Source: Apostichopus japonicus
Lineage: Eukaryota > Echinodermata > Holothuroidea > Aspidochirotida > Stichopodidae
Length of the DNA: 64,000 nt
Direction: 5' to 3'
Assembly: GCF_037975245.1 (NCBI RefSeq)
Contig: NC_092565.1
Coordinates: forward strand, 18,763,999-18,827,998
Part shown: one piece after another, positions 13,799-51,020 of the stretch
How positions within the stretch are numbered: the stretch's first letter is position 1
Layout of the letters: each line of letters begins with the position of its first letter
Program-made: the position numbers and the translations under genes
Notes under the pieces: generated by a model
Told to the model about the DNA's origin: nothing
Database searches by the model: none
What the model saw: the letters and a program-made list of their open reading frames with translations, nothing else

Positions 13799-13869
13799 TT
13801 CAATTAGTGCATAAATACTGTGTAGTGATCGCAAAATCTTTTTTTCTTCCAAAATCGAATAATTTAATT

Positions 13870-14040
13870 GAGTTATCGACCTTATTGAGATGTCCGGTTA
13901 AATTAGAAATGTTCCTCTTTCACGTGGTATATCTCAACTATCGGTAACAAAACCGATCTCTTGACCAAAAGTGGCCTTAAATTTTTCACCCCAATATGGA
14001 CATCTCTAAACACGCTCTATAACATAATGTGTAATGATAT
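13870..14040. repeat. Dispersed repeat, left copy flanking a LINE
   Basis: Contains CTTATTGAGATGTCCGGTTA, GACCAAAAGTGGCCTTAAA and GGACATCTCTAAACACGC. The same blocks occur in the same order at 14703-14880 on the other side of the L2-like fragment. Confidence 0.85.
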
Positions 14041-15981: not shown

Positions 15982-18900
15982 ATCATCATGGAGTTCTTAA
16001 GTGTGAAAATTACTTTCTTCTTCTGGATGCACCTTACCTTGCTCATAGTGATGGCTGCTGGGTTCTGCCAATGGTTACTCTTGTACATCTATGCCATCTT
16101 CTTGCCAATACTAATCATACTTCGTGCTTGGTTTTATTTTAAATTAAAATGGCAGCTGTTCCTCGTTGACTTATGTTACTGCATAAATCTTGTCTTGTAC
16201 ATATACATATGGTGAGCTAGAATTTCATGAAATCTTTTTGCATAATTAAGCTAGATACTCTTATGGTTCTTTTTCTTCAATTGCCAGGACCCCTTGCTTT
16301 TGGTTAGTTGTTCAGGCGCATAGCCAAGAATTTGCCAAGCGAGGGGCGAAACTGTAGATTCGGCATTGCAAACTATCTAAGTGTAGCGCCACCATGTTGG
16401 CGCGAAGCGCACAAGAAAATTTTGGCTGAAAATGCCTCCCAGATTGCTGGAAATGGCACTTCCCAGGCCTTGTAAGTTGCATCTTAGCATTTTCTCTTTT
16501 GAAAATACTAGCAATATCATAACAACATTAAAAAAATAATACAAAAATATGCTCAAAGGGGGGCGGCGGTTGCCCCCTTCGCCCCACCCCCCTTGGCTAC
16601 GCGCCTGTAGTTGTTAGGACCTCCACTCCCACTGCCTATACCCCTCCCTTGCCCACACACATTTATTACACTCCATAGAATGGCCACTCACATCACTTTT
16701 CGAGGTGAGACCATGCCGAGAGTTTTCTCAGTTCCATATCTTGCAAACTGAATTAGCTAAAGCAAAATGTTAATATTAAATGCACTGTAAACATGGACCT
16801 TTATTAATAATGTAACCTGTTGTGTGAGACTGATGTATAACATTATAGGTATCTGCAATTACTACAACGATCGATCGCTATTCAAGCACAGTTACCACAA
16901 TTTAACGAAAGTTTCTTTCCATTTTGTATGATTTGTCAATAGGTTGCAACAGATTTCTCCAATTGTGTTCTTAGTCTGAGTATATAGTAATAGTATCTAT
17001 TAATAGCATAGCAACTGAAGGATGTATACCTGTATTTTTTTCGAATTTCAAGTGACGGTCGTAAAATGCTGGTTTGATAATGTGCACATAAAGTATAAGT
17101 TGATTTTTGGATAGCTAAGTTGACTAATGGATGAAGAGTAGAGTCAAGGGGGTCATAGGTTCAAATACTGCCCTAACGACGCCATCTAATCAGTTATGTC
17201 TTTGCTCTTCAAAAATTAATTTTCATGTCTTGTGTAGGCTTGCACGGTTTTGTAAATACTAGAAACTGTTTTTTTCTAGCCAAAAACATGGATCTGGCTA
17301 AAAAAACGGGTTATTGGTTTCGCTTATAATCGTAACCTATGCATTCATGCGTGTGTGTGTGTGTGTGAGTGCATTTGTGAAGCACAGCTTTTAAACATGA
17401 TATCTCAAGAAGTTAAGGTTAGACAAATTTCTTATTTTGTTTGTAGTAGTACCACATTAAGTACAAGAAGCCTATTGTTTTTGGTGATTTGGGATCACCA
17501 GGGGTCAAATTGTGAAAACCTGTACAAGGTTTATTAAGAAGGGAATCATGGGCAGACCTCATATTTGGTGTTTAGAAGTACCGCTCAAAAGGAGCCTACT
17601 GTTTTTGGTGGAGGGCAAAGGTCATTAGGGGTCATCAGAGGTCAAGTCTTGAGACCTTGTAAACATGTACACTCTCACTATACATTTGGTCAAATTCATG
17701 AAGAAAACTGCTCATTTAACATCATAGAAACCACAACAATGCATTTTTGCATTCTGGTTTCATCTTGTAGGGTAGGACCAAGTGTTCCAGAATTCTTGTA
17801 CGTCATCTTCGGTATATCTCACGGACCTGTCCTGACAGCAGCCATCACGTTTCGCAACTCGCTGGTGTTCCACAGCATGGACCGTATGACGTCATGTTTC
17901 ATACATCTCATGCCTCCATTGCTGACCTTTGGCATTAGGTGGTACCCAGACCGGATCACCCATTGGATCGCTCCTTTCATCAGCAACCAGGACTTAAATT
18001 TGACAGAACAATCTTTCTGGATATTTGCCCTGCCATTGGCAATTCTGGTATTCCATACTGTAAGTTCAATAGCCTGAATATGATATACTTGGTTGTTTCT
18101 AATAAGCCCCCTCCTTCATGTTACAGCAACAAAATGTATGTTATCCATTGCCATAGTTGAATTTCAATGAGCTGATTTTGTAGCATATTGTGACCAAATG
18201 AATAAAATCCTCATTTCTAAGGGTGGGCAAAGGTGTAGAGTAGGGCAGATTGTCGTAAGACCAATTTCAAATGTATTGATTGATATTAAATTGGTATTAT
18301 TTTCCTTTCACAGGCCGTTTATTTGAGCTTCTTGGTGATAGTGAGGTATGTTTATCTTTAATGAATGAATTATTGTAGTTTTGTAAAAGCTTTTACATAA
18401 GTTTTTTTTTCGTCAATTGTCAGCCAGCTAGTTTTCAACTCATCAAGAAAATTTTCAAATTTACAAATTGTTATAAAATTGTTACAAAAATCATTTGGCT
18501 GATTTTTTTTTCTTTTTAGATGAATGACATATATAAGTTTGTGATTTGCTGTTTAATTTGTGGTGTGTGATAAATTCAGTTGGTTGTCTCCATTTTGGTC
18601 AGATTCATTCATTATCATGAGCAATACTAGGAAGGTATAGTGAAACTATTCTAAACTATGCAAGAAGCTCAATAAAACATTTGAAATGACCTAACAAAAA
18701 TGAAAATGAAAATCCTTTTATGATTAAATTCATTAAAAAGGACACTCTATCTTTTAAGCAGAAAATGACGATATGGTTTTAGCTTCAAAAATAAAATAAG
18801 TGTAATTAAAGTAAATAAAGGGATGATAAACAATGATTGTTTAATTTGTTTGGATCTTCCATTCCAGTTTAAGGCAGGACGGATGTTTTCATTTGTCATT

Positions 18901-20900
18901 TTGTGTGATATGTTAGTATTTCATGATCTAATCATAACTAAACAACATTGAGGTCTTTCATTTTGCTTCAACGACTAAAGTTTTTGTGACAAAATATGTA
19001 TTGTATGTAATCCAATCTTTGTAGGCCCCACAAAACTTAAAGGATTGGTTCAGTTGTCATACATGTTTATGTTATATGAAAGAGGACAATTAAAGAAACA
19101 CAATGATGAAAAAACTGTTCAAATATCTTTTTCGATTAAAGAGATATTCAAGTGTAAAGTTTTATCAGATTGTGTAGAAAATGCTGAAATCTGACTAGCT
19201 GTGATGTCACATCCTCACTGGTTGGTGCGTAGCGTACAGAAAATTTTTGAGTAAAGATACTCTCTGGATCGCTGGAAATGACCCTTTCCGGGCCTGGCTT
19301 ATTTGCAGATAAACGAAGAATAAATAGGTGTCATCGCCAAATTACACCAACAAAATGTGACAAATGTCAATAAGTAGATGAGCGCAATAAAAAAGTCAAT
19401 AATCGCGAAGAAGTAGAAAGTGGTAAAGAGCTGAAAAGGGTGCCAGCAGTCCATTTGAGTCCATCAGGGGGGGCATCCGCCCCCCCCCCCTGACTGTATG
19501 GACGCTCCGCCACTGACTGACATAGTAAGAATGTTGTTGTCTTTCTTTTCACATTTTTAGTTTAATGCTATTACATAGTGTTGTTTTTTGTTTTTTTTTA
19601 AAACGGTTTTGTGGTTGTGTTCTTTCACCTATTTCTTTAGACCCAGTGAAGAATATGTGGGTTTTTACTCGTACTTGACAGAAGGAAGCAGTGGAATTTG
19701 GCCGACAATTTTCAAAAAGTTTGCCAGAAAGTGAGTATGAAAGATTTCTTCAGATACCATGGTGAGAGATTATAAGTTCACAGGAACAGAAATGCTCTGA
19801 AATTTCAGCATGGTAAAAAAAAAAAAAATCTTATTTTTTTTTCTTCAAATAGTCCTAATGGGAGGTTGGGGTCAGGCTTGATATTAAGGGTAGTTAAGTG
19901 ACATTGACTCTATTGACATGGGGCCAATTAGTGAGCCTGGGAAATATGGGATCAAGAATAATGTATTCTTATTTTCATAAGGGAAAATGAGGACTTCAAA
20001 CAAGGGGGCCAGGTGACTTAGTAATTGGTCTGCATGCTCCAGCCCGCCCCCCTAAATTCCAATGACCCTGGTGGGGATAAAGACTTTCCCTTTGTCAGTA
20101 ATGTCATCTTTGGTTTGTTTGTTTGCTCTCCAAATTGATAACCAGTACCTGTATAAACTGAAATTCTCTGGGCCCTTTTGTGTGTAATAGTATAATGATA
20201 TACCTCACACATTTTATCTTCGTTAGTCCAGTCAATATGTAACTAGGTCGAGTTACCGTTGTGAAAGAGCTTTCACTCTCTGCTACTCTCTTATATTCTC
20301 GTGATTGTTATTTCACTCGATATTGATTTTTGGTTTTATGAAAATTCATTACTTTTTGGTTTCGATAAATTTCGTAGTATGTTGATGTATCTATCACATT
20401 TAGTACAAGAAGCTTGTTGTTGAGGTCAATGGTCATATCAGGAGAGCCTGTGTCATTGTGAATTTACTGTTTGTCACATCGCACTGCTTTTCACTGTATT
20501 ACTAATATCAAGAATGTTGTACACTTGTGTACACCCTCACTGTACATTACTTCAGATTCATGCAGAAAATAGCTCATGTTTCATCATCGAAACCACTATG
20601 CGAATGTTTGCATTCTGGTTTTAATTCCATATCCATAGGTGGCGACCATTTCTGTACATCCTCTTGATACTGACCATAGGAGGGACAAGTGTTCTCCTCA
20701 ACTTTCTCTGGTACAACTACTTCTATGCAAACCTCACAGTGCTGTGTTTAGTCTTCTCGCGGCTCATTTGGAATGCGTCAACGTTCTATGTAGACGTTTT
20801 CAGGAAGAAAGGAATGGATTCAGAACCGTACTCTGTACTTTGGTGCTCAACTTGGTGTGATGAACAACCAGATACAAGAAGTGCAAACAAGGTGAAATGA
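15982..20900 (+). CDS. Gpc1/GPCAT-family membrane protein (glycerophosphocholine acyltransferase, DUF2838)
   Basis: Five exons join in phase: 15982-16211, 17771-18059, 18314-18345, 19641-19730 and 20639-20900 (TGA). From ATG 15988, which has a good start context (A at -3, G at +4), the protein is 298 aa with about seven to eight hydrophobic helices. Diagnostic parts are WQLFLVDLCYCINLVLYIYI, FGISHGPVLTAAITFRNSLV and HSMDRMTSCFIHLMPPLLTF. The D-x-CY and HxMDRxTS..IHLMP signatures match plant GPCAT1, yeast Gpc1 and animal proteins named 'membrane protein C776.05-like'. Family enzymes use acyl-CoA to acylate glycerophosphocholine to lysophosphatidylcholine in membranes. Plant and yeast members are about 380-430 aa, so an N-terminal cytosolic exon may lie upstream of 15982; none was recognised. 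A MITE sits in intron 1 and another in intron 3. The function is inferred from family. Confidence 0.85.
16313..16607. mobile_element. hAT-like MITE, CAGGCGC family
   Basis: The ends are CAGGCGCATAGCCAAG and CTTGGCTACGCGCCTG, inverted. The 8-bp target duplication TAGTTGTT is exact (16305-16312 and 16608-16615). The 295-bp interior has the core GCGCGAAGCGCACAAGAAAA and a G-run/C-run stem near the right end. It lies in intron 1 of the GPCAT-family gene. Confidence 0.9.
17440..17770 (+). repeat. Intron-end repeat with AGGTCA half-sites, copy 1
   Basis: The last part of intron 1 contains AGTACAAGAAGC, a cluster of AGGTCA-like hexamers (17618-17645), TGTACACTCTCACTATACAT, then GAAACCAC and TTTGCATTCTGGTTT just before the acceptor. 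The same blocks in the same order end intron 4 (20400-20638). Confidence 0.6.
19215..19515. mobile_element. hAT-like MITE, CAGTGGCGGAGC family, left end lost
   Basis: It matches the interior and right end of the complete copies at 42735 and 49536, including GCGTAGCGTACAGAAAATTT and the end GACGCTCCGCCACTG. The left terminal repeat is missing. It lies in intron 3 of the GPCAT-family gene. Confidence 0.85.
20400..20638 (+). repeat. Intron-end repeat, copy 2
   Basis: Matches 17440-17770 block for block (AGTACAAGAAGC, TGTACACCCTCACTGTACAT, ATGCAGAAAA, GAAACCAC, TTTGCATTCTGGTTT) and abuts the acceptor of the last exon. Confidence 0.6.
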
Positions 20901-23900
20901 TTGGATGTCAATATGTTCATATATGTGAAACGTGATTGACTCACAAGGTTTATGCTATAAATAATTACACTTTGGTCATGTGTTCAAGGTTTTTCTAGTA
21001 CTTTAGGAGACCATTATTTAACATTGTGAGTGAAAATCAAGAATGGCCGTCTGTGAAATGTGAGGTGAACTGAAAGGTACCACTGTCATTGGTTACCTTG
21101 GATGTTAAGAGTGAATGCAGAAAACTTTCCATTTTATTGAAAATAGTGAAATACAAACCCCAAGGGTGACTGTGGGATTGGGGGAATAAGGGGGAAGGGG
21201 GTGGGAAGGGAGAACTTGTCTAGAAAAATCAAGGTAGTACAGAAAAGGAACCAAAACTGGTGCACTCTTGTTAAAATTATACCCAGTTATACCCAGTTGT
21301 AAAATGCTGCTGATCAATTCAGACAGATAAACTGTATATGGCTTTTATCTGTTCTTTAAAGGGTGAACTTGTTATTGAATACCCCCAGTTTGCTTGCTCC
21401 TGTCTGGATTTGTCTGTGGACGTCCATGTTAAACCCTGAAGTAAACAAAAAGGGGAGATTTTAAGACTAGATAATAAAATAAAATATACTGCTAAATATC
21501 ACTGTCTGTAAATTATAACGAGTATTCCACGACCGATGGTCATCACCACAGGAAACAAACGAGAAAGGACCACTTAGTCACTTGAAAAGTGATAGATAGG
21601 CTTCAATATATGTCGATGTTTTTGACCCACTTTGAGCATGTCTTTGGAATCATTTTTGTCCATGACTTTCAAAACCATTGAGTCGCAGTCGTGTTCCCAA
21701 TTGTGGCAATATGTTGAGAAACCTGGAATAAGGGAGTCTGTTCAATACAAAACATCTGTAAAATCTTCAAGTATGCTTTATCAGTTGGAAGAGACAGTGC
21801 AGTCGAAACAAAATTATGTTTTTGCCGTCTTGTGATATTTCAAACACGAGATAGTTAATTTCTTGAATTTCATAAATGGAGGCAATATGGTAGTGCTTTT
21901 TAATACTTTACCTTTCCTCAAACGTATAAATTTTCCTTTATTTCATCGATAGAATGTCGTCTTGCATTGTGTTTATTACCGTTTTCAACACTGTACACAT
22001 TCTACAAACGTATAATTCATAATTAATAAGTGCAATCTTTTTTATATTTATGATTATTATTATATTTATTGTTACAAATTTTGCCATAGGATGATTTTAC
22101 TTCCTAAGGAACTTTGTAGAGGATTCTAGAGGCCCTTTTTTAAATATGGTATTCAGGAATTGGAGAAACTGTAAACCAATTTAATATGTACAAAAGGCAC
22201 CAAAGAAATCAAGCATTTTATTTTTTGGGTGCTGTTGTTTGTAAATCATATTTTATATCAAACACCTTGCAAGGAGATATATGCACATTCACCATTAAAT
22301 AAGAATAACTTTCTAGTCATTTTTATTCATTTTGACTGTCATTTTTCATCATAAATGATGTTGTATATGGTGTATATGGACAAACAATATGTTAATAGAG
22401 GATTCATGAAAGTGTCTGAATCTATAATCTGGAAATAAACTACCAAGTGAAAGGATAAGCATAAATATTTATTTCAAAGGTAATACTTCTCATGACGCTT
22501 TCCTCTTGGCGAGGAAATATAATAAATCTGCAGCAGTGTTTTTTTTTTTCAACTTTTAATTTTTTTCCTTGAGAGCTGATTGTTTCTATACCGGGATAAT
22601 TACAAAATCGTCAGTATTTTTTGGCTGTAATGAAAAGAAAACTGACAATAAAGAACAAATTGAGGGGATTTTAACAAGAGTTTTTATTCCAACTTGTCTC
22701 TTTTTTACAATAAACTTCTCTGACAAAAAAGGTATCAGATAATGTGAGTTTGTCAAGATATTGTTCCGTCTTGCTCTATCCAATCCTTATCAAAGATGAC
22801 TGATATGTTTCCCTACCCCCTTTTTAAATGGTCACTGTATACTCCCCCCCCTCCCGCACACCCAGGCATGAAAATATGAATCTATATTACATATAGCTGA
22901 TAGGTACAAGGCAAAAGAGTAAAGCTCACATTTTGGGGATTTGTACACATATCTCGAGACGCCTGGAAAACTTATCAGCAAGAGAACGACATATTCCTGC
23001 TTCTCAACTTCCACTGAAAATACAGGTTCTTGAAAGATTCCTAACCACATCAGTTTTGCTACCCAAAGCTATCATGCTCATTAAGAGTAATAATAACAGG
23101 TTATAAAAGGTTTACCTATTTTGTAAATAGACACAAATTTTAAGAAAGCAAAATTGTAGTCTCAAACATCAACTGATCACTGCCATCAAATTAAATATCA
23201 TAATTTATGTTTCAGCTATCATTTACATCTCAAGGCTGCAGTAGATCTCTCTTCCTACCCTTGCTCTTGGAAGTAAATATTACTCAGTTTAGTTTACTCT
23301 GGCACTGAACATTGCAGCATTTGAAAAGCAAGGGAGGACATTTTCACTTCCTACTCTCCCATTTATTTTAAGTTCCCAGCTTTATTTGGTTACAGGCAAC
23401 TCCAGAATATATCACAAAACATTTGGAAAATGTAGCTACCTGATACACTAGCAGGGGATTTATTCTGTGCCATGAAAAGAAAGCAGGCAGGATTGGTTAA
23501 AACGACAAGATTGCATAGTGATTTCAAAGTAAGCATTTGGCAAAAAATGAAAATCCTTCAAACAAAGTACAGCTCTTTTAGAGACATGATTAAATGAAAT
23601 GTGTAATAACATTTGGTCATTTCTTGAGACTTGAGTAATCGCATCACTATATTTGACGGTTTTCAATGTTGTGGTATTAACCACTGGCAGTGTTCTAAGC
23701 AACTCTGAAGAGATCTTCAGGACAATCATCCTCTCCTCTGCCAGTTGTCACTTTCATCTTTCTCATCTCGCATGCTTGCAACTGACTGTGTGTGTGTGCC
23801 TGTCAAGAATACCCTGCAAGGCTCTTTCACATCTACTTATTTTACCTACATGGTCTTAGGATTAGATATGTAGCACAGAAACCATTTCCATTTTCAAGGA

Positions 23901-24011
23901 TGTTTGGTAATCAGAGAATATTCCATCTCAAAAACAACAAAAACTGCCTGCAACATTCTAACAGTCTTCAAAACTCTAAACAGAGCTTACAGCTCCAAAA
24001 GCACCTAAAAA
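20901..24011. other. Intergenic region between convergent genes
   Basis: Presumed to hold the 3' UTRs of the GPCAT-family gene (plus) and EDRF1 (minus). It is A/T-rich with a short G-rich tract near 21180-21210. I see no exon of a known family. Candidate minus-strand poly(A) signals (TTTATT on the plus strand) occur, for example at 23459-23464. Confidence 0.5.
21473..21478 (+). terminator. Candidate poly(A) signal of the GPCAT-family gene
   Basis: AATAAA about 570 nt after the stop codon, followed by AATAAAATA overlap. A second candidate is at about 22433. Usage is unknown. Confidence 0.3.
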
Positions 24012-24225
24012 CAGGCACGTAGCCAGGAATTTGCCAAGGGAGGGGTGAAAATGTAGGCAAACTATCAGAGCCGTAGAAACAGCAGTGCAAACTATCGAAG
24101 CGTAGCGCTACCATGATTAGCGCCATGACTAGCGTTATCATAAAAACATTAAAACAAATTTAAAAAAAATATGCTCAAGGGGGGGGCGGCTGCCCCCTTC
24201 GCCCCCCCCCTTGGCTACGCGCCTG
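24012..24225. mobile_element. hAT-like MITE, CAGGCGC family, short
   Basis: The ends are CAGGCACGTAGCCAGG and TTGGCTACGCGCCTG. The target duplication CCTAAAAA is exact (24004-24011 and 24226-24233). At 214 bp it lacks most of the shared core. It sits 52 bp beyond the EDRF1 stop, probably in that gene's 3' UTR. Confidence 0.9.
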
Positions 24226-24277
24226 CCTAAAAACATCATTGCACGTAAAGAAGGTCCTGACAGGATTCCACAAACTC

Positions 24278-27200
24278 TCAAGTCAATGGATGGCTTCTAA
24301 CGATAGCCTCTATTTTATTAACTATCTCAAGAAGTGTTCTGATTCTGTCTGCGTTGACCTCGTCTGATTCTTCAACAGAGTGGGTTTTACCTAGAAAACT
24401 ACCGTAAATCTTCTTGAAGGGTTCCAGCTTCTCTGCATGTCTGAAAGATTAGTCAAATATGTGAGTTTTAGGCACAAAATATTTTACAAAGCAAAGACTT
24501 CCATAGTTCCAAAATAATTTATTCAGCAATATTTAGCATGCCAAAATTAATTATAGAGGCAAAAAATTTACATTAAATAATAGAGTTCAAAACGAAAGAT
24601 ATTTGGAATGTTTTCTTTAAAAGCTGAAATCATAAACTCTGCATTCAGGGTTTCATTAAAATACAAACCTTTGTAATAATTTTGTAAAATAATTCTAGTT
24701 TTAGCTTAAATTGCTAAGATAATTGCACACATTTTCCTGATCATTTGTCAAACTTTAAAGGAATATCTTCTTGAATAATGTGGTCTTCACTTCAAGATGC
24801 AGAAACTTTAGTTTGGAAAATTTTCTAAACTTAATGCACGAAAAAAAGGGAGGGGGAGGGGAGAGGAGGGTGAGGGGGTACAAGGAGAGAATGGGGAAGT
24901 TTTTGTTAAGCTTACCCTTTGTTGTGACTGAGATGTTTCATAACAGCGAGCAAGTTGACTTTAATTCGAGACTCCATAAGTGGTACCAGTTTGGATAATT
25001 CTGTCTGCTCTTCTGAATCAAATGCCTCCTCCACCTTTGGACTGTCTGTTTGAGGAAGTTTCTCAGGAGACTGAGATTCCTGAACAGCGTTTTTGGTTTC
25101 GGCAGAAGAACATCTACTTTGAAGAGCTATGAGAGATTCCTTTGAAGCAATGAAAAGCTGTAATATTAAGTTGAAAGACTTGGCTCTAGCCGATTGACCC
25201 GTCTGACCTTGAGAGGAAACAAACAAGAAGAGAAAAGAATTGGAGGATATTCCCATCCTTTTCTCTGTAAGTCTGTGAAGTCTTCTTGAATTAGAATAAT
25301 GGATTTAGCCCTGATGTTTATATGCAAACTTAGGGTAGGTTAGGGTACATTTTGCGATAAAGAAAATTGCAGGCCTATGGTAAGTATCAATATTAGTGTT
25401 GGAAAAATGCAGATAAATTATTATTTAGATCTCCAACATCTGTTGTAGAACTAACTTCCTTGAAAAATCCAATCTACTTTGGGTTCTTGTATTTACCCCA
25501 CTTGGTCGACACTGTACTGCAAACAACACAAGCTATTTGAACACAGCACATAATTCAAACTGAAGTGCCTGATTACCTCAACATTAGAACAATATCAGAA
25601 TAACTACCCCTCCTACCTTTCTTTCCACCCCTTCCCCTACCCCTCCCACCCTTCTTTCCACTCCCTCCCCTCCCACCCTTCTATCCCCTACCCCCTCCCA
25701 CCCTTCTTTCCCCTACCCCTCCCTCCCACCTTTCTTTCCCCTACCCCTCCCACCCTTCTTTCCACCCCTTTCGCCACCCCCTCCCACCATTCTTTCCACC
25801 CCTTCTGCCACCCCCTCTCACCCTTCTTTCCACCCCTTCCGACACCCCCTCCCACCCTTCTTTCAACCCCTTCCCCTGCCACCCTTCTTTCCCCTACCCT
25901 TCTTTCCCCTACCCCTCCCATCCTTCTTTCCACCCCTTCCACCACCCCCTCCCACCACCCCCTCCCACCCTTCTTTCATCCCCTTCCGCCACCCCCTCCC
26001 ACCCTTCTTTCAACCCCATTCCCATGATGAATACCTACAAGCCTTACCAGCTAACTGGAATTCCAGGACTGCTATCCTCTCTAGTTGTATTCTAAGTACT
26101 TCCAAATGTCTGTCCTGTTCTATGAAGTATTTGAAAGCTTTGTTATAATGTAATTCTATCAACGGATAAGTCCTTCTCTGCTTTGGAGAAACCTCCTGTT
26201 TGAAAGAGAAAGTATTAAGTTATCATGTAATTAGGTGCTTGTGCAAATGCCACAATCTATATCATGAGTAATCATATATACTGCATGTTGTAATTATTCA
26301 TGACAATGTAATTATGTTATGACTTCTGTAAATATTCTTCTGCATTTGATCAAGCCATGACGAATACTGGCCATATGATGTGAGATTTGTACAACCTGAA
26401 TATTGCAGATCTTGTGCACAGGCAACAATCAATATCATGAACAGGGTTGTCACAACGCCGGGCGGCGCCGGGCGGTGCTACCCAGCTCTCAAAATTTCCG
26501 CCCGGTACTCAAGGTCAATTTCAGCCTTACCGCCCGGCACAAATTAGCCTACAGTACCGCCAATAAGTAACTTGGTAAAGATTAGCGCGATTCAGTGCAA
26601 AACGCAGCTTAACTGTAATTAACCCCGCGGATCACTGTCACAAATTACCCGGCTCTAAAAATGGTCTGGTGACAACCCTGATCATGAATATTCATAAATA
26701 TATGAAGTGTTTAATTTATTCATGACATTGTAATGACCTGACTTCTGTAGATATTGTGATACATTGATGCCAAGCGATGATGAATACTGGCCATATGATG
26801 TGAGATTTGTACAACCTGAATATTACAGTTCTATGAATATTCATACATATTAAGTGTTTAATTTATTCATGACATTGTAATTACCTGACTTCTGCAGATA
26901 TTGTGATACATTGATGCCAAGCGATGATGAATACTGGCCATACGATACTGGTACAGAGGACGAGAGGCCATGGATCTATCCTCTGCATTACACAGCCGAA
27001 GAGCATTGCTGAAGCAATCTTGTATTTCCCTTTCCACCTGAAATATAATTTAAAAAAAACTACAATTGAACACCAAATATCTCTATGAAATATTAAATAT
27101 AAGAACAGCAATAAGTCATAGCACTTATTTGATGGTTATACACCCACTGACCATGTTAAGTAGTTCGAGAGCTGAACAAACTTAGAAATCCAATTTATTA

Positions 27201-30200
27201 CACACTTAATGATAACATGAGAGTACCAGGCTTTATCATAATAACTTGAAGATCATTTCCGTATAACTCCGTGAAGAGTTGTGAAGTGAACAAAAATCAC
27301 TACCGTAATACAAGGCTGAGAATGAAGGAGCCAACATGACAATGCTGCCATGTAATTCAGCGTTTCACCAATGCTGTTTTAGTCGTTGCATATTTCGAAA
27401 ATGGTAGATTTTTGTTTCTTTCTTTATTCTTTTTTTTCTTTTAAATGGTTTGATTTTTATATGAACGTGTATCATATAAGAAGGAGCATATGTCTTGTTC
27501 TACATTGATATATGAAATTAAGCATAAAGCAAAATATTTTGAAAATGTTAAATCTCTCGTAAGGGGCAGAGGACTTAAGAGAATCCACTTCTGCTGGTGG
27601 ATACATTGGGAGCAAAGTTCTGAGATGAGAGTATAAATGGAAGTTCGGAAAGTGGACAGAATTTTTCTACTGGCAGAGGCATAGAAACAGTGACCTCAGT
27701 GATACAAGTGCTTTGCTCGGAATATGAACGCAAAAACATTGTGAACAAATATTACCTCTTCTTGAGCAGTTGTTTTCATAGGAGGGTAGTCTTGTAACAG
27801 ACACCCCAGACTGTACTGAGAGGTGCAAAGTTCCCAGGACACCGCATCCCAAATCTGCGGATTATTCTTCCTCTTAACGAGACGTGAAAGAGCTTGCTTG
27901 TAGTATTTGAAAGCCTGAATGAAGTATAGAAAGAAAGCAGTAAGTTTGATTGCAACAAACTTGACAAACCTTTGAGAAAAGATATAAAAACAAAGCACTG
28001 ATCATATAACTTGAAAACCTGCAAGAAAAACATGTAAAAGGAAAAAATTGATGAATGCAATATGTTATATCACGGTTCAAATACCTATTATTTGGCTGTT
28101 GATCCTAAAAGCTTGTTAAGCAGGTTTCTGTCACTCCTAAATGCAAGTTTTTGTTACTCCTAAAGCAGGTTTTCCAAGTTCGTTAAAAATAATGAAGCAA
28201 AGAGTCAAAACATGTTTATTTTTTAATTTGTTTAAATTGGCTGGTTTTCAATGCTTTTATGAAAAGTGTGTGGGCAATAAAAAGTTGATGTTGATGCTGT
28301 TTTTTAATTTTCATTGAATGGAGGTGAGGGTAGGGGTGATGGTAGGGTTTTGGGGGAGGTGGTGTGGGGTTGGGGTAGAAGGAAAGTTACCGCACCAACA
28401 TAACTATCTTCTTCTAACACTGCTGTAAATATATTAATGCATTTGGAAGTGACACAAGACCAACAAACAACAAAGTAACAGATCAACTTACCGAATTCAA
28501 TAGTTTCTCAAATATCCTACCTTTTGAAAGAAATGTCTCTCTGATTGGGAAAGCTGGCCTGCTACTCCTGCACTCCCCTGGTGAGCGTGACTCTGTGCAC
28601 AGAGCCTCATTAATCGACCGCTGTTACATAGCAGGAGGGCAATGTTGGCTTCGTCCTTGACTTCCTCAAATGCTTCCATGCCCTTTTCAAAACATGAGAG
28701 GCTTTGCTTCCAAAGGTCTCTTTCTTCTTTTAAAACTTCATTGCCTTGTAAAGAAAAAATAATACTCATGTTACAATTATTGGTGGAAGCCTTTAAATGT
28801 AATTAAAAGTTTCAAGTGCAGACACAAAATGCCCTGAATATTAGAATTGTTAAACATGTGGACCCCCAAATGAGGGAATGAAATATTATTCAAGCGTTAA
28901 TACTCTGTTAAGGAGAGAAAACCAAAGTTCTTTTAGAACATACAAATGAATATTATTTACTTACCTTCCCTTTGTTTATAGCACTGAGATGCCTTGCTCA
29001 TTATATGTACTCCTAGTTCATTCTTAACGTTGCCTATCTTCCTCGCCACGGTAACCAGGAAGCTAGGCGACTGACCCTGGTCATTTCTTAGGGCACTGTT
29101 GTAACATTTCAGACTTGACCGAAGGCTAATTTCCTTCTCTTTGCTTAATTCAACTTCCCAACTGCTACCTGATAAGCAAGATAATCGACATGCTGTGAGA
29201 AAAGTTTAACAAACAAACAACCAACACCAACAACAAGAATCAAAATGTCTTTCTCACAGATTTATTTCAATCATTTTTTAGAAGACCTACCTGACCTTTT
29301 GAAATCTTGTACATCAAAGAAGTCCCTGAGCTTACAAAAATTCAGGTATTAAAAACAAAACAGAAGTATGGCTCCTCTCTATCAAGTAAAATCTTTGTAG
29401 ATGTTTCTAAAATAATTTTTTTTCCCTTTTAAATATTCAATTCTATCCAATCAATTCCAATTGATTTTCTCAAATGTACTCAAAAGTCAATACACATGTG
29501 TCTGGTATATATAATTGAAAAAGTACAAGTGACGGACACTAGGAAAAACAGAGGTTGTTTATCAGGAAAAACAAGAACAGGAAAGAAGGAGAAAGAGACA
29601 CGAAAACTAGATATCAACAAAGCAAAATAAACAACACTAAAACAACCTAAGTGTCTTTGACTATTTACAAGATGAGATTTCACATTGTTTTGGAAGCTCC
29701 TGAGATTAATAGCACAAGGAATACTCATAGGCGTGGGGGGCTGCAAAAACTTCAGGCAATATGCTGAGAATTTTTTCGGGCACCTACTGAAAGAAATATA
29801 ATTTGCAATGTGTTTTTCAATGGTTAAACTTATATTATTATTATCGTTATTATTGTAACCACTTCCCCAATAATTATAACCATATGGAAGGGTAATAAGC
29901 AGCAAATGATTGTATGTTATTGGCATGCGATGTAATAACCAATGCATGCCTATATACTATGCACATTAAATCGTTGAACACGCGCGGAGCGTACGAAAAT
30001 TTTGGTGATATTTTTCGGGCAGGTCGTTACAGCCCCCCCAAATCAAATTGGTCTCCTACACCTATGACTATATACCAAATAATAGTTGTTCAATCAAAAA
30101 AAGGAGAAAGAGTAAAAACCCCTTTAAGTTATAGCACACAACAAGAATCTTGGAAAACTTGCAAAATTCTAGAAAAAGCTATCTGTATGCTCTGATAACC

Positions 30201-42437: not shown

Positions 42438-42484
42438 TTTTTTTTTTAAATCTTCAATCGTGTCTTAAGTTCTGTGTACTTGTT
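42438..42484 (-). other. 5' UTR part of EDRF1 exon 1 with upstream acceptor
   Basis: On the minus strand, the acceptor TTCCTTTTCTAG precedes 42484. The 47-nt leader ends in an 11-A run against the ATG. This implies a noncoding first exon farther right, which I could not place. Confidence 0.45.
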
Positions 42485-42734
42485 CTAGAAAAGGAACACA
42501 AAGCAACAACGATCAAAAGGTTTTGAATTACTAAAGAAGGTGCACAGAGGTGGGCTCAGTTCAGTACTCAGGCTGTGTTGACTATTAAAGTTTTTGAAGT
42601 ATATATGCTTGCCAGCTAATCCTAAATACCATTCCAAGAAAATCATGTCAGACTTCCAATAGTACATATATACAAAATATGCCTGTCTTCATTTCCCTTT
42701 CCTGCTTGTTTTACACTGCATGGAGGGTCCAAGG

Positions 42735-43132
42735 CAGTGGCGGAGCTAGGGGTATTGGCCATAGGGGGCGAGAATGGTCTGTAGGGGCGCTTTCGACACT
42801 ATCTAAGCTGAGCATCACCACAGGTTGGCACGGAGCGTACAGATTTTTTTGAGTAAAGATACTCCCTAGATCGCCGGATATGACCCTTTCCAGGCCTTTC
42901 TAATTTGCAGATAAACGAAGAAAAAATAGCCATTAGAGCATTTTGACAGAAAATTACACCAACAAAATGTGACAAATGTCAATAGGTAGATGGGAGCGCA
43001 ATAAAAAAGTCAATAATCGCGAATATAAGTAAAAAGTGGTAAAGAGCTGAAAAGGGCGCCACCGGTCCATTTGAGTCCGTCAGGGGGGGGCATTCGCCCC
43101 CCCCCCCCGACTATATGGACGCTCCGCCACTG
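42735..43132. mobile_element. hAT-like MITE, CAGTGGCGGAGC family, complete
   Basis: The 398-bp element has ends CAGTGGCGGAGC and GCTCCGCCACTG and an exact target duplication GTCCAAGG (42727-42734 and 43133-43140). The core GGCACGGAGCGTACAGATTT is followed by a G-run/C-run stem near the right end. It lies 250 bp beyond the recognised 5' end of EDRF1. Confidence 0.93.
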
Positions 43133-43140
43133 GTCCAAGG

Positions 43141-44960
43141 ATAACAACTCAGGCATCCCAATGGTATCCAGTGGTACATATGTGCCTGTCTTTGTGTCCC
43201 TTCCTTACACTGCAGCCATTGTTGCTACACATGTTATTGCATGGTGAATGACCCTAAAAAACAACTGTACAGCAAACTCCTCTTTCAAATACCTCAATGA
43301 AATATTATTCATAATTTGGGACCAAGCTGATCACCACAAATCTTGCTTTGTATCAATTCAACATTCTACCAAAACACCCTTGATGTGCTTGAAAAAAAAA
43401 AACCCATTTAGATTCAGACACCATTTCATCTACATGTATCTTGGGAGGAGATTTCAATATTGACATGTCAATAATTGAGAATAATCCAGTATTTTAATGA
43501 ATATAGATCTAATCTATGGATGTAATTGTCCAAAATGGCTCCATAATCCCAGCATAAGTTATGTTTTTAGTTTTACTGCTCCGCTATGGGTCAGAATCTT
43601 AGTCCAAGTATTAAGTATTTCACAAATGTGTCCACATGATTACCTGAACCACCCTTCTGCAAGTTACATTTGTCTTTCACCTGTTACTGAATGAGAATGT
43701 CTCAAGCAAACGCCTTGCAATTAGGCAAAACTCTAGATATGGACAGAATTCCATAAGATTACAGTAAAGCTTATGAATTTTGTTCTGACATAATTGCCTC
43801 AGATGTTGTTCATATCTGATGCTTTTATCTCTGGCTCACCTTATCCTCTAAAAGCTGCAAGGTATTGCTTTCAAAATTGGAGATAAAAAGTTTATCAGGA
43901 AACTACAGACTAATAAGTTTACTCTCTTGAATGAACAAACTACTTGATCGGGTCCAATTGATATGATTGCAATGGTCCCAAAGTAAAGAAAATATTTTCT
44001 TCAATTAAAAATTGGATTTGATGAGGTCACACAACTTTTTTAGAAACATTTAATACTTGGATATTCATTTACAACTAGAAAATGGCAGCAATTAACCAGG
44101 CATGGACTTAGACTTATAAAAAGCATTCAAGATTTGACACAGTTATGAGTTAACCATTACATATAGGGTATTTATGGCAAAGCCCACCATATATATATCC
44201 ATCTACTACTTGTTTAGCATAAAGAACTGAAGTTATGTAAATAATACGTTTTCTGAATACAAACATCTCCATTGAAGTTCTATGTTACAAGAGTCTGTCA
44301 TGGGGTTATTCAGGTATCTACGTCAATGACCTTATTTAGATAAAACAAAATTGAATTGAGTAAGCCTCTGCTACCTATATTATCTTGACCGATTGTTTTC
44401 GAATACTTTGTTGAATAGCATCGCGTTCGGATATGATACTTTTATTAGAAGTTAAAGGCCCAACTTAAGACTTTTACGACGTACAAATGGGCAAAGACGT
44501 AGTGAAGTGATTTTCGCGGAAAGGATCCATACAGTGTAAAGATATCTAAAAGCGAGTAAAGTCGAAGGCCATCCCGCAAAATGGTTTGAGATGAAAAGAA
44601 AAAAATAATAATTACCATAGTACTTACGTTTTCATTTGATTATGTGTACATTTTGACAGCAAAGGCGATTAAATGCAAGTACAGAAGTTGACATACTCTA
44701 GGATGTTGTGTAGTGAGAGACAAAATAAGTTTATTTAGTTAACCGTAGGCCTAGCCTGGGTAGACGGCTGAGGTAAGTTTCTACAAAATTCTAGGTTTTT
44801 CGACAACACAGCTAGTTGACCTTTAACGTCATTTCCGTTCAGATTCACTGATAATATGAATCGTTTTAGGGGTAAATTGTGAAGCTTTTGGAAAAGTTGG
44901 GGATAGAGATTGAGATACCAGTTACTTTTAGATCATTGTGAAAACCAAATTCATAATATC
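43141..44960. other. Gene-free A/T-rich DNA
   Basis: No exon-like pattern, RNA gene or repeat structure that I can support. It may hold the promoter and a noncoding first exon of EDRF1. Confidence 0.4.
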
Positions 44961-44964
44961 AAGT

Positions 44965-46015
44965 CAAGAAATGATGGAAAACGAAACACTCCGTGAGTTG
45001 TACCAAGTGTTCGAATCACCAATGTGAGTGAAACACTCAGAATGCAATATCAAGTGTTTGGCTTGCGGTGGGGGTGTTACTAAAACGAATGACAATTGCG
45101 TTACACATAACGAATGACAATATGTTGTACACACTAAAAAATTGCGTTGACTAAAACGAATGACAGTAATGACAGCACAGACATTTGCTTCAACCGGATA
45201 TCACAGTTCAGATTTCGTGGGTATCTAGATCTAGTAAAGTACGGACAAGATAAAAACGCACCTTATAGTAAGCGAAATTGTAAGTCTGATTTAAAAAAAA
45301 AATTAACGTCATTTTTCCGATATTAATTGTTAGAAACTAACAATAATATAATCTTGAAACGGATATATTTCTATATAAATCTACAGAGGTAAAAAGCACA
45401 GCACTCAAGCGTATTCTCACACACAAACTTTCCCTGTGATTTCTATCCGTAAATTACACCAAAACCCTGGAACCACGTAACATATGTTACAAAATCGCAT
45501 ATGCGATTTTCCTCAAATCATTTTTGCGCAGAAAACCAATAACCGCATTTACTCCACTCCGTTAATCATTCTATCTCCACTCAACACTGTCCTTCGTTGT
45601 CATTCGTTGTCATTCGCTATCATTCGCTGTCATTCGCTGTCATTCGCTGTCATTCGCAAATGATAATTAACCCTGTACAAAGTCAATTGTCATTCGGTCA
45701 TTCGCTGTCATTCGTTTTAGTTTGTCCCTGCGGTGGTGCATAAGTGAAACACTCAAAATGCAATACCAACTGTTTGAATTACTGAACCTTTTGGTACGTA
45801 AGAGAAACACTCAGAATGCAATACCAAGTGTTTCAATCACTGTGCAATCGATACGTAAGTGAAACACTCAGAATGCAATACCAAGTGTTTGAATCACTGT
45901 GCCTTTGGTACGTAAGTGAAACACTCAGAATGCAATACAAAAGTGTTTGGATTACGGTGGCACAATGAACGGGGTAAGTGAAACACTCAGAATGCAATAC
46001 CAAGTGTTTTTTCTA
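44965..46015. repeat. About 60-bp satellite array, split by a transposon
   Basis: The unit is about 57-62 bp, with GTGAAACACTCAGAATGCAA and TACCAAGTGTTTGAATCAC. Partial units run 44965-45071 and about five run 45737-46015. A DNA element occupies 45072-45728. Confidence 0.9.
45072..45728. mobile_element. 657-bp nonautonomous DNA transposon
   Basis: The ends GGGTGTTACTAAAACGAATG and CATTCGTTTTAGTTTGTCCC form an imperfect inverted repeat of about 23 bp. The exact 8-bp target duplication TGCGGTGG lies at 45064-45071 and 45729-45736. Subterminal motifs repeat ACGAATGACA on the left and TGTCATTCGC five or more times on the right. No transposase frame is present. The target is the satellite array. 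Confidence 0.92.
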
Positions 46016-46767
46016 TAGCAAGTCACATTAAATGCTCAAAAGTTTGACATTCTTCTCGGAAACTGAGTGGCTTAATGTTATCTGTTGGTGGACTGGAACC
46101 ACCTGCTGAATAAGTTCTGCATCTCCTGAACAGATTTTTATTATGGCCAAACAAATTACCAAAAAAAAAATCAATACTATGTTGGAAAGATGCTGAAGTC
46201 AATTCCTTGAAATTTTCAACTATGCAGCCTTTGAAAAAGGTTACAATTCTTAAAAAATAATATGATCGGGTAAGAATTTATATTTAATAATAACAAAATA
46301 TGAATTTAAAATTAAACAATTTGAGGGTTCAATAAACTTTAAGTAAGCAAATTGAAAACAATATTTTAAATAGATTTTGATAGCACAGTTACAATTTGTC
46401 GAGAGCTATAATTAAGTACTCAATTTTGTTTTATTGCAATTACCTTTTCCAGGTTTCAATAAAATAACTATTTTACTTGAAAGAATAATGACAAGGTCAA
46501 AGCATAACTTTGAGAAAACTTAAAAACGTTATGGTACAAAATTCAATTCCTTCAACGTTTCAACTTCGCAGTCTCTATGTTAACGGGCATTAATGTTGCT
46601 GAAGACGTGAGCCGGTGAATAAATTTTCTTTAAGCGTTTATTGAACTCAACAAAGCCATGGTTACTAGGGCAATGCTTGATACCCTCGAGATTGAAATAT
46701 GCAATGAAGAAATCGGTTTCTGTTTCACAAAGGCGATGTATCGCCGCCTCCAAGCATTTAGAATTGC

Positions 46768-47128
46768 CAAGGGCGTAGGAACCGGTAGGGGCTGGGGGGG
46801 CGCCAGCCCCCAGTGAAAAATGTGGAGGGGCGGAAGTATCATTCCGCCCCCCCCCCCCGGTTCGCAAGTCAGAAAACCCCTTTTTCATTTCCAAATGAGA
46901 AAAAAATCTCATTTGGAGCACCAAATTGCATCTAAGGCCAGGTGAAAATACAAAATTAAGTTCACAAAATGGAGAGGGTGTTGAAGTGTGTTGCATCTGA
47001 GGCCACCTGGGAATGCAAAAAAATCCAAAGGGGAGGGGGACACCCCCTCCCCTTAGACCCCTCCCCCAGGCCGGCCATCAGTCTTCAGCCCCCCCCCCCC
47101 CACTCAAAAGTACCTTCCTACGCCACTG
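46768..47128. mobile_element. hAT-like MITE, GGCGTAGGAA family
   Basis: The ends are CAAGGGCGTAGGAACCGG and CTTCCTACGCCACTG. The near-perfect 8-bp duplication is AGAATTGC/AGAATTGG (46760-46767 and 47129-47136). It is GC-rich with G- and C-runs. The open frame across it (minus) is a product of the element and not a host gene. Confidence 0.85.
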
Positions 47129-47800
47129 AGAATTGGTAATGTCCATACCATTAACGAAAGCCTGCCAACTATTATCCGCAAAATATAAAACTCTGTATGT
47201 GAGAGCGCTTTCACCAGGAGACAAATTGATGAATATTTTGTCCGTCATTTACTATGCAGGAGGTATATCCTAGATCACCTAGCTTTGAGGGTATTAAAAT
47301 ACAATGACCCAACAGGGGTAGTTGCGTCATTATCTCTGGAAGTGGTTGCTGTGGTTGAAGTGTTCGATGCTGTTACAGCATCGATACTGCAACATTGATG
47401 TTAGTAGCCTGCAGTGCAAATTTGTTTTGCTTGTAGAACCTCATCGGTGCGAGTTATGGCATGGCATCAGTAGTAAGACCTATACTTCTACGGCAGCCTT
47501 CGGTAGCTCACTGACTCTCGAGGGATAGAAACTTTTTTAAGAAAGCAACATCGAAACAGAAATGTTCTCCAAAAATTTAAAGAGACTAATTATTCTAAAG
47601 AAAACAATTTACCATGGTGTCTACATATTTGTGGTGCAATATAGGTCAATGTCTGGTTGGGTGAGGATCCTCTTTTTTGCGCAGCAAGTTGATATTTTAA
47701 TAACTTGTGTGACGATCATATTTCTCAAATCCAGTGTCACATCACACGTGTCAACTTTCACGTTTTCTTCGAATTCGTCGAGACTCGTTGGTATCGTGTG

Positions 47801-47846
47801 ACCAGGGAGTTGTTATGTAACAACTCCCAAACTCCCTGGTCTGACA
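47801..47846. repeat. Interrupted palindrome
   Basis: GACCAGGGAGTTGTTATGTA is followed by AACAACTCCC and ACTCCCTGGTC, so both GACCAGGGAGT and GGGAGTTGTT recur inverted. A related AACAACTCCCTGGTC occurs at 11280-11294. Confidence 0.8.
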
Positions 47847-48144
47847 GGTGCTCTGTGTGTTCTGCAAATGTCCCATGCAACCTTTTGAATTGGTAAAGCA
47901 AAGTTAATGCAGTAAAAGAAGTGGGGTATATTCAGGCTCTACAAATGTTGTGTTTAAGTTGACTGTAGGAGGTTGGGCACAAGCTATAGGATTTGGTCAC
48001 CATTCTTTCTTCTTCTTCTTCTTGTTTTTTGTTGTTGTAAAATCTCTATGTTTGAACCATGGGGATGGGTTGGCAGGTCTGTCCCATATAGGCTGATTTT
48101 CTATGTGTTGAAATGTATGATAAGAATTAAAAAAAACATAGGAC

Positions 48145-48170
48145 CGTTGGTTACACTAGTGTAACCAACG
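48145..48170. repeat. Perfect 26-bp palindrome
   Basis: CGTTGGTTACACT and its exact reverse complement are joined without a spacer. Confidence 0.97.
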
Positions 48171-48847
48171 CAGTACTGCTATCGGATGAATTGTGTTGAG
48201 CTATAAAGTTTATTCTCCTGCCAGGCACTGGAAGCCTTGAAAGAAATTAAATATGAACAATGAACGGTATATATTTGCTGCCCTTTTTTCAGGCATTTTA
48301 ACAGCCGCGGTCCCGTAGCTTTCAGTACGAAAATACAACATTGATTTTTTCGCGGATGGTCAATAAAATTCAAAAGCAAACACATGTTATTTATCGTCAG
48401 AAACCCCGGCCTCGTAAAATTGGGTTTATCGTTCTTCAAACCATATGATAGTTTTTATGACCTTTTGTCAGTTACTGTTAAGTTCAGTTCCAGACTTTAT
48501 TATTCTATTCTATATTTTCTGCTCTTAGCTTTAACAATGCCCGACAGTCAACTCCATACAGAAGATCAGCCAAGTAATACCCGAACACATGAAGTATTTC
48601 ATAATCCATTTTAATGTAAGTTTTTTCTTTACCCCTCCGATTGATGTAGGCCTATACGGGTTTTTTATTTTGGCGGTGAATCCTGAAAACCTAATATTTT
48701 CCATCGGTTAAGTTTGGAATTCATGTCGAAAATAGTGTATCACAATATATATTGGGAGTTTCCTTATCGAAGGACAGTAATATAAGTGTCTTTGTATACT
48801 TTGAGGATGTAACAGGAAGATACACATAGGCTTTAAATTATCATATA

Positions 48848-48990
48848 CAGGCGCGTATCCAGGATATTCAAACCCGGGGGGCGCGAATTACTATCTAAGC
48901 GGAGCGCCACCATCGGTTGGCGCGCAGCGTACAAGAAAATTTCTTATTTTGATACCCCCCAGATCACCGGAAACGGCACTTCTCGGGCTT
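48848..48990. mobile_element. hAT-like MITE, CAGGCGC family, left part
   Basis: Starts CAGGCGCGTATCCAGG, continues with GGCGCGCAGCGTACAAGAAA and CCCAGATCACCGGAAACGGC, then ends without a recognisable right terminus. A matching right end (CCTGGATACGCACCTG) lies at 51005-51020. Confidence 0.7.
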
Positions 48991-49535
48991 GAAATGACCA
49001 ACCAGATGTACACTTTTTGCCTGAGAACCGAGTAGTTCCTAATAGTTTTTTTTTCCATCCATAACCTTTTTGAAGATTGTCAACCCGGCACACATCATGT
49101 TCGACCTGATCGCATCTCCTGTGGGTCTTTGCTTTTGTAGGTGATTCTACGTCACGGCCCACAATACCCGTCAGCCCCACTTTTCAAGGTTTTAAGCCCC
49201 ATATTTGTTCCGAATTTGAAAATTCACATTTCTCGTGAATAAACTCACTTGAAAACATACCCATAATGTTGTACACAATTTCATCTATGGACAACCAATA
49301 TAGAAAAACTTCCTTGAACCCCTAACAGACTGGTCAAAATTGCACGAGTAGAGGGAAGTGTGATGCAGAATGTTGGTCAGAAATTTTCGAAAATTCAGAC
49401 ACAGTTAATTTATTGGTGTAGAAATATTAAAACCTCTTATAACGGCTATTATAAAACTTGGTTGAAGGAAATGAAAAAATAGCAGATATTTCCTTCAACC
49501 GAACACTATACACATAGGCTTAGGAGGCGCGGCGG

Positions 49536-49920
49536 AAGTGGCGGAGCTAGGGGTATTGGTCAGGAGGAGCGAGAATGGTCTGTAGGGGCGCTTTCAACAC
49601 TATCTAAGCGGAGCGCCACCACTGGTTGGCGCGTAGCGTACAGAAAATTTTTGAGTAAAGATACTCCCTAGATCGCCGGAAATGACCTTTTCCGGGCCTG
49701 GCTAATTTGCAGATAAACGAAGAATAAATAGGTGTCATCTCCAAATGACACCAACAAAATGTGACAAATGTCAGTAAGTAGATGAGAGCGCAATAAAAAA
49801 GTCAATAATCTAGAATAAGTAAAAAGTGGTAAAGAGCTGAAAAAGGCGCCAGCAGTCCATTTGAGTCCGTCAGGGGGGGGGGGCATGCGCCGCCCTGACC
49901 ATATGGACGCTCCGCCACTG
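49536..49920. mobile_element. hAT-like MITE, CAGTGGCGGAGC family, complete
   Basis: The 385-bp element has ends AAGTGGCGGAGCTAGG and GACGCTCCGCCACTG. The exact target duplication CGCGGCGG lies at 49528-49535 and 49921-49928. The core GGCGCGTAGCGTACAGAAAA is present, and a minus frame reads DGLKWTAGAFFSSLPLF as in the 19215 copy. Confidence 0.93.
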
Positions 49921-50264
49921 CGCGGCGGGGGTGCAGGCCCTAATTCGCCATTACTAATGTAAAAGAGAGTTTTGACATAATTGGACCTCCATGCTTTTTA
50001 TACATCTACATGAGACATGTCGTTGTTTACATTAGCATCCCGCGGTATACCGCGCAATTTGAACGGACCGTACGGTACATGATGGCATGCGATGTATTAA
50101 CCGATGCTTGCTTATATGATATTGACATGAAGACGTTGAACGCGCGAAAATTTTGGGTTATTTTTTCAGGCAAGTCGGACAGTTTTGAGGCTTTACATCC
50201 TGGAACGCCATTTTCATGCTCACTGATATGATGTGATATCTGCTGTTTGCGTCACAAATTCGAA

Positions 50265-50562
50265 CAGGCGCGTAGCGAGGAATTTGCCAAGGGAGGGCGT
50301 AGCGCCACCATAGGTTGGCGCGAAGCGTACAAGAAAATTTTGGCCGAAAATGCCTCCCAGATCGCTGGAAATGGCACTACACAGGACCATTTGTTAGCGC
50401 GAAGCGTACAAGCAAATTTTGGCCGAAAATGTCTCCCAGATCGCTGGAAATGACACTTCCCAGGCCTTGTAAGTTGCATCTAAGCACTTTCTATTTTGAA
50501 ATTACTTAGCGATATCATTTAAAACAATGCTGAATGGGGGGGGGGCGGGCGGTCGCCCCCAT
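50265..50562. mobile_element. hAT-like MITE, CAGGCGC family, duplicated core
   Basis: The left end CAGGCGCGTAGCGAGG is present. The core GCGAAGCGTACAAG....CCCAGATCGCTGGAAATG occurs twice in tandem (about 50319-50385 and 50396-50462). The right terminal repeat is missing after the G-run/C-run stem. Confidence 0.8.
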
Positions 50563-50799
50563 CCCAAAAATCGTCATGTTCCCCAACGACACGATCGAGT
50601 TCGAGACCAGCCACAGTTGGTTTGATAGCACAATTCTACACACGCGTTATGATAGACCATATATAGTATATATATATATAGATCATTAGTGAGAGAGGAA
50701 AATGGAAACGTCAAAAAATGGAGTTGTCGGTGTAAGGGGTAGGGTGAGTCAAACTTTTACGAAATCATTGATCCGTCACTGGCTACCCTTCAGCGCTGT

Positions 50800-51020
50800 A
50801 ATGATGTCACTGTTCCTCTTTCTCTTCCCGGTGTCTTCGCGTTTTTCTTTTACTCCCTCTTTTTCTCCTTTTTCTCTCTTTCTTCTTTTTCTTTTCTCTT
50901 CCTTCCTCTCCTCCTCTTCTTTTTTCCCCTCTTTTTTCCTTTTTTCTTCTTTTTTTTTCTCTCCTCTTTTTCTTACCCGGGGGGCGCGCGCCCCCAATGC
51001 CCCCCCCTGGATACGCACCT
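50800..51020 (-). repeat. Polypyrimidine tract next to a MITE right end
   Basis: About 180 bp of C/T (50812-50985), then CCCGGGGGGCGCGCGCCCCC and the terminus CCTGGATACGCACCTG. The open frames here, in both directions, are low-complexity. Confidence 0.7.

Follow-up and report, generated by a model that had tools for sequence, protein, structure and literature searches.

A conserved core shared by hAT-type MITE families with different termini in Apostichopus japonicus, and its presence in the subterminal region of a transposase-bearing element

The analyzed window is a stretch of 64,000 nucleotides of the Apostichopus japonicus genome (NCBI RefSeq assembly GCF_037975245.1, contig NC_092565.1, forward-strand positions 18,763,999 to 18,827,998); coordinates given below without a locus name refer to it. 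Its forward strand carries a number of short MITEs with different termini, which an earlier note on this DNA had described as sharing a related internal core of 70–90 bp. The core exists but is slightly longer, approximately 98–100 bp, and begins with ACTATCTAAGCG. The pattern GCGNAGCGTACNNGAAAATTTT gave six matches in the window at no more than 3 mismatches, compared with 0.02 expected. Seven copies were detected by a profile search at E < 1e-6, namely, four in the group with CAGGCGC ends (in the elements at 16313, 48848, and 50265, the last with two copies) and three in the group with CAGTGGCGGAGC ends (19215, 42735, and 49536). Apart from these elements, the window contains an exon-like ORF on the plus strand (17538–18074) with similarity to Pfam DUF2838 (PF10998, 1.9e-9), which we take to be a domain of glycerophosphocholine acyltransferase-like proteins. 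At the gathering threshold, Rfam recognised nothing in the window except a tRNA gene on the minus strand (56156–56228). There are also a minisatellite of 31-bp units (13154–13921, 17 overlapping register copies listed) and 22-bp repeats similar to CATTTCGCCCAACCAGCCTGGT (3387–3586 and 4163–4245), one copy being inverted at a distance of about 600 bp.

The element with CAGGCGC ends at 16313..16607 (plus strand, 295 bp), assigned to the hAT MITE family F1, has terminal inverted repeats (TIRs) matching at 13 of 14 bases, a perfect 8-bp target-site duplication (TSD) TAGTTGTT, and a core copy at 16372..16469 on the same strand (profile match, 96.7 bits). Another F1 copy with CAGGCGC ends (24012..24225, plus strand, TSD CCTAAAAA) has most of its core deleted. 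The hAT MITE family F2 has CAGTGGCGGAGC ends and is represented by an element at 42735..43132 (plus strand), which has a perfect 8-bp TSD GTCCAAGG and a core at 42798–42896, and by an element without its left end at 19213..19515 (plus strand, core at 19213–19294). A hAT-like element with CAGGGTTGTCAC ends and TSD ATCATGAA at 26442–26680 has no core, so hAT-like elements here do not all bear it.

The elements at 48848, 49536, and 50265 had been taken for separate ones, which proved incorrect: all three lie within a composite non-autonomous element of 2.17 kb (F11; 48848..51021, plus strand, CAGGCGCGTATCCAGG ... CCTGGATACGCACCTG) that has its own core near the left end (48890–48989). Nested in it are an F2 MITE with CAGTGGCGGAGC ends (49536..49920, plus strand, 8-bp TSD CGCGGCGG), a remnant of a C-family element (50083..50177, plus strand), and an F1-like piece of the F12 family without a right end (50265..50575, plus strand) with tandem cores at 50297–50385 and 50386–50466. 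The interpretation of the region 48848–50562 as three free MITEs was rejected in favour of this single composite, which recurs in the fetched loci L004, L012, L015, and L028. The nested F2 insert is absent from the copies in L011 and L015, and sister copies in L004 and L015 are further evidence for the nested element. No 8-bp TSD was seen in the copies of the composite that were read; three of them have matching flanks of 5–6 bp (GATAT in L028, TATAC in L012, and CATTAG in L004), and those in L011 and L006 match uncleanly. The tandem core duplication of the F12 piece (50297–50466) recurs in L004, L006, L014, L015, and L028.

As for the C-family element with CATAGG ends (29725..30066, plus strand), it had also been counted among the core carriers. 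This assignment was rejected because the element contains no core, but only a motif of about 24 nt (GCGCGGAGCGTACGAAAATTTTGG) near its right end (29982–30005), and no matching 8-bp TSD was found in its flanks. Ten other matches of the 24-nt motif were found outside cores; four of the ten read GGAGCGCGCGAAAATGTT, the others vary, and GGAGCGTAC occurs in none of them. A full core is present in a separate family with CATAGG ends, F8 (L010, L017, and L077).

Genome-wide (671.6 Mb), the exact 22-column core pattern gave 5,383 matches (2,721 + 2,662), and an independent exact pattern for the first block of the core gave 13,473 (6,735 + 6,738), with no matches for the reversed controls of either. Viral contigs and prokaryote genomes contained no exact core matches. 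The profile constructed from the window copies detected 77 matches (E < 1e-4) in 288 kb of the window and fetched loci, four of them counted twice because L006 and L007 overlap; L007 was left out of flank extraction. A later profile search yielded 150 matches (E < 1e-6) in 339 kb, including 121 full-length copies with both flanks. Loci L001–L088 come from one contig and were picked by the exact 22-column pattern or by lying within 10 kb of such a match; all 20 loci picked by the first block alone likewise contain a core match, the weakest at E 1.7e-18. The alignment of 15 representatives, F1–F15, over the core has 45 invariant columns, among which the 22 pattern columns are favoured by the way the loci were picked. 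The inverted repeat GCGCCACC/GGTTGGCGC in the core is nearly invariant, and two GCGNAGC words 23 bp apart are present in most cores (109 and 103 of the 121 copies, respectively).

The 121 full-length copies fell into 16 left-flank and 14 right-flank clusters. In 15 flank-defined groups the core lies near one end, usually 41–79 bp inside; among the copies with a recognised end, its start is at this distance in 12 left-end clusters, with one copy at 90 bp, and F15 (L068) has no recognised end. The exception is F5: its core lies 226–429 bp from the present end, and a coreless form (L012:3365-4256) has a perfect TSD. All these termini are of the hAT-like kind (CA..TG, many CANNGGCG). In eight core-bearing end types, CA..TG terminal inverted repeats are accompanied by a perfect TSD of 8 bp; for F8, F10, and F12–F15, none was found. 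A search by termini only, which required a perfect 8-bp TSD and a TIR with 10 or more of 14 bases matching, recovered 32 elements, 19 with the core under the eight end types and 13 without it, some of which may be chance TIR/TSD pairs. Among the first twelve consensuses, 10 of 66 pairs had a left-flank identity more than 0.10 above that of shuffled sequences, the pair of F1 and F12 showing the largest excess, and the look-alike left ends are mainly pairs among F1, F5, F11, and F12. When 40 of 2,187 candidates were scored, four shortened F1 copies came to light: in three, the greater part of the core is gone, and the one in L090 keeps the first half without the second. Since each copy has a different deletion, none of these forms looks amplified, and a coreless F1 subfamily that had itself multiplied was not seen among the candidates scored.

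The rate of change of the core was compared with that of neighbouring DNA in the five families (F3, F6, F10, F13, and F15) with alignable DNA to the right of it. Between families, the core differs by 0.05–0.18 and the next 78 bp by 0.28–0.54, the core being the slower in 10 of 10 pairs, which are not mutually independent (ratio about 3 to 8; Fisher p 6.4e-4 to 1.1e-8). Removal of the 22 pattern columns left a ratio of about 2.5 to 6, with p ≤ 4.1e-3 in each of the 10 pairs. Within ten families, mean change was 0.043 in the core and 0.059 on the right side, so that copies decay far more evenly. There was an approximately twofold gap within F1 (0.078 and 0.166) and F11 (0.054 and 0.129), which may speak against strict neutrality of dead copies or reflect a bias of choosing copies by the core. 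Overall, the pattern points to selection on the core in amplifying lineages, which had been suggested as one possible cause of its retention and is supported by the slower change relative to adjacent homologous DNA in every pair. Core-limited gene conversion could be an alternative brake on core change.

Ten ORFs scanned in the first loci showed no hAT transposase. In a search for the hAT dimerisation domain, 150 matches of 633 candidates were scored and the flanks of two were read; one match, on contig 1, adjoins an already fetched core. It belongs to a hAT element of 6,425 bp (C1:12202535-12208959), whose TIRs agree at 13 of 16 bases and which is flanked by the perfect 8-bp TSD GCCCAATC. Its three ORFs (341, 226, and 473 aa) and the core are on opposite strands. 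DUF4371 (4.7e-11) was recognised in the second ORF and Dimer_Tnp_hAT (3.1e-9) in the third; a Pfam search with 315 aa of the first gave no match. The sole core inside the element lies 77 bp from the terminus at the transposase 3′ side, and a second core match beside the element falls outside its TSD. The core is thus the subterminal region of a transposase-bearing hAT element, as seen in one element read whole; this origin had not been anticipated in the earlier note. A related element with Dimer_Tnp_hAT was thereby shown for F9, the one MITE family examined in this respect. In the F9 copies L012, L016, and L027, one common deletion, identical to within a few bases, joins positions ~1244 and ~6157 and removes the transposase, indicating that this form was copied after a single deletion event. 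The core end is kept in L016 and, with nested inserts between, in L012; in L027, no alignment to it was obtained next to the junction. The core is not general to hATs, as it is missing from the 1.9 kb read beyond the dimerisation domain in a second hAT family (L114, 804-aa ORF). Four hAT matches with identical scores and 804-aa frames (C1:1198075 and C7:9747129, 9836554, and 9878765) perhaps represent a recently active family, and the 1.9 kb downstream of one of them is free of the core.

In F7 (L018:788-2038, TSD CATCAAGC), the right end resembles that of F3 (80% over 88 bp), as does, by reading, the left TIR (13 of 14 bases), and positions 53 to 618 match F11 at 91%, with the first 35 bp of F11 missing. 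From this arrangement, we read F7 as F3-like ends around the core and interior of F11, i.e., as an exchange. F5 ends enclose two interiors, one with an F9-like end and core (five copies aligned) and the other with the F9 interior without a core (one copy). Modular exchange of ends, proposed in the earlier note, is supported by these two cases. On a core tree for which 58 full-length copies were taken from the 121, with no more than 5 from any group, the flank-defined groups require 16 changes (minimum 14; 43.1 in shuffles) and form nearly one clade each. A single core-tree clade for the families with GTAkCC ends (F1/F12, F11, and F9) was rejected (p-AU 0.0002), and single clades for F1/F12 + F11, F3 + F7, and F4 + F13 were not (p 0.105–0.111). 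The possibility that all ends are diverged forms of one terminus, with core and end trees agreeing, is therefore only partly upheld: the ends are all hAT-like, some left ends are alike, and the groups approach clades, but the rejection for the GTAkCC ends contradicts it.

These data are most readily accounted for, and in our opinion quite likely, by the core being the one-sided subterminal region of a hAT lineage that MITEs keep for mobilisation in cis, presumably through transposase binding; it is probably the handle by which the MITEs are moved. The MITE families would be transposase-less derivatives of core-bearing hAT transposons, in which the core is kept for a cis-acting role, most likely that of binding the transposase; the candidate sites are the inverted repeat GCGCCACC/GGTTGGCGC and the two GCGNAGC words. 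Over time, the terminal repeats of the families would have diverged; together with the exchanges of ends or interiors, seen in at least two cases and probably following nesting, this divergence would have left one core behind different termini. Binding of the core by the transposase, selection acting on this binding, and a similar source element for the remaining families are our inference. Several observations weigh against this explanation: 13 of the 32 elements found by termini lack the core, the core of F5 is distant from the end and a coreless form exists, the second hAT family shows no core in the stretch read, the right side in F1 and F11 is more diverged than the core also within the family, and the 6,425-bp element, the one transposase-bearing element read whole, has its coding part split over three ORFs, so that its activity is at most putative.

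It seems very unlikely that the core is instead a structured RNA or single-strand hairpin module whose fold is selected, and the RNA structure is at best suggestive. A three-helix structure for the 15 representatives, devised while looking at the sequences, gave 12 cells with changes on both sides compared with 5.5 in shuffles and 87.5% of cells paired compared with 84.5% (0 of 500 shuffles as high in each case). The second stem varies by family (GGC/GCC, GAGTA/TACTC, GGTTT/AAACC, and GGGTTT/AAACCC), as does the third in part. Stricter measures, however, remained within the shuffles: 23 of 500 were as high for pairs changed on both sides and 110 of 500 for further pair types, and with an alternative third helix the counts were 103 and 254 of 500. 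The covariation check suggested by the earlier note thus gave partly high counts under column shuffling but no significant pair under a tree-simulated null, where the best pair (columns 13–36) reached E = 0.83; covariation was not accepted as proof of RNA structure on that account. Own arms paired better than chimeric ones for helix 2 (P 0.013, 14 families) and helix 3 (P 0.004, 12 families); for helix 2, which is missing in three of the 14 families, this signal appeared on both strands, and for helix 3 the reverse strand gave P 0.38. The combined folding z, with families treated as independent, was below that of shuffles on both strands, the core strand being no stronger than its complement. 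A known structured RNA was rejected, as Rfam showed no match at the core (the window at gathering, one core at E up to 5, and seven loci at E up to 1). The apparent covariation, as distinct from the conservation of the core, may be due to template-switch mutation between short inverted-repeat arms, which we would put at slightly less than an even chance. Such a mechanism has been proposed (PMC8794818), and the short stems and the helix 2 signal on both strands would suit it; it would be compatible with the subterminal-region explanation, but leaves the slow change of unpaired core positions unexplained, and the covariation itself is possibly just chance.

Conservation without a function in mobilisation would be expected if descent were neutral and gene conversion, which needs homology, kept the cores alike while the flanks drifted or were replaced. 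The core is indeed the longest stretch common to all groups, the alignment of the F3 core reads as F1-like in its first half and F6-like in its second, and the tandem duplication in F12 is consistent with this. Conversion would, however, blur the group signatures that the core tree recovers almost intact, and the conserved block stops at about the same place in five families though homology continues rightward; we regard this explanation as improbable. The two GCGNAGC words, with a similar word in the C family, would also suit binding of a host transcription or chromatin factor, the core spreading through expression or tolerance rather than transposase binding. Its position beside one terminus in most families fits a role in transposition better, and a host factor has, in our estimate, only a slender chance of being the cause. 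Somewhat less improbable, but still unlikely, is a core that passes as a portable module between hAT families by end exchange and works with several transposases, possibly as a folded hairpin, its gain aiding MITE amplification; it would then be the hAT counterpart of the highly conserved domains of SINEs. Those domains, such as V, which is also found in the MER6 MITE, are likewise conserved modules in otherwise differing families (PMC6887750); they belong to retroposons, whereas the core belongs to DNA transposons.

A cis-acting hAT subterminal region would fit this pattern. Hermes transposase binds one transposon end asymmetrically, its BED domains contacting subterminal repeats of which a pair forms a quasi-palindrome, and in several hATs DNA far beyond the TIR is required (PMC10368747). 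The core resembles the subterminal repeats of Hermes and Tol2 (PMC10368747) in its location inside the TIR, its asymmetry between the ends, its quasi-palindrome as a candidate binding site, and a probable requirement in cis. It differs from them in being a single block, about 100 bp long, that is kept in 15 groups defined by their flanks and unlike in their terminal repeats; its binding is putative. The closest parallel is provided by the CMITEs of Acropora corals (Wang et al. 2010). These are piggyBac-type elements of about 100 bp with TTAA target sites, different TIRs, and a 75-base inner region that changes less than the TIRs and whose origin that study left open (PMC2872659). In the present families, too, conservation is greater in an inner region than in the TIRs, and both systems share tandem arrays, nested composites, and a proposed role in transposition. 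Unlike CMITEs, with their TTAA sites and piggyBac-type CC[C/T]T termini, the present elements are of hAT type with CA termini and mostly 8-bp TSDs, have the core near one end, and include a transposase-bearing carrier.

Ordinary hAT MITEs arise by internal deletion. The families described here agree with them in TSD length and TIR type, and F9 in its origin by internal deletion, but differ in the shared, slowly changing, one-sided module and in the exchange of ends. No hAT case of this kind was found in the literature searched (titles and abstract openings), which does not prove its absence. A pattern similar to the one in corals, for which the origin was left open in 2010 (PMC2872659), appears in another superfamily, and its source can be followed here to a subterminal region in an element that bears a transposase. 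Slow change between families combined with far more even change among the copies of one family offers a genome-only readout of the parts of non-autonomous transposons selected for mobility, and the F7 and F5 chimeras illustrate a route to new MITE families through the exchange of ends or interiors.

Two of the fetched loci that contain F8 copies also carry other sequences. In L010, an open frame of 694 aa on the minus strand (L010:3-2084) encodes SCAN and CCHC zinc-knuckle domains and is perhaps a retroelement gag. In L017, a 3,051-bp stretch (L017:1536-4586) has CATAGGCG-type ends, an 8-bp TSD TGTGTAGT, and ORFs that look RT-like from their letters; it is probably a nested retroelement or a case of chance ends.
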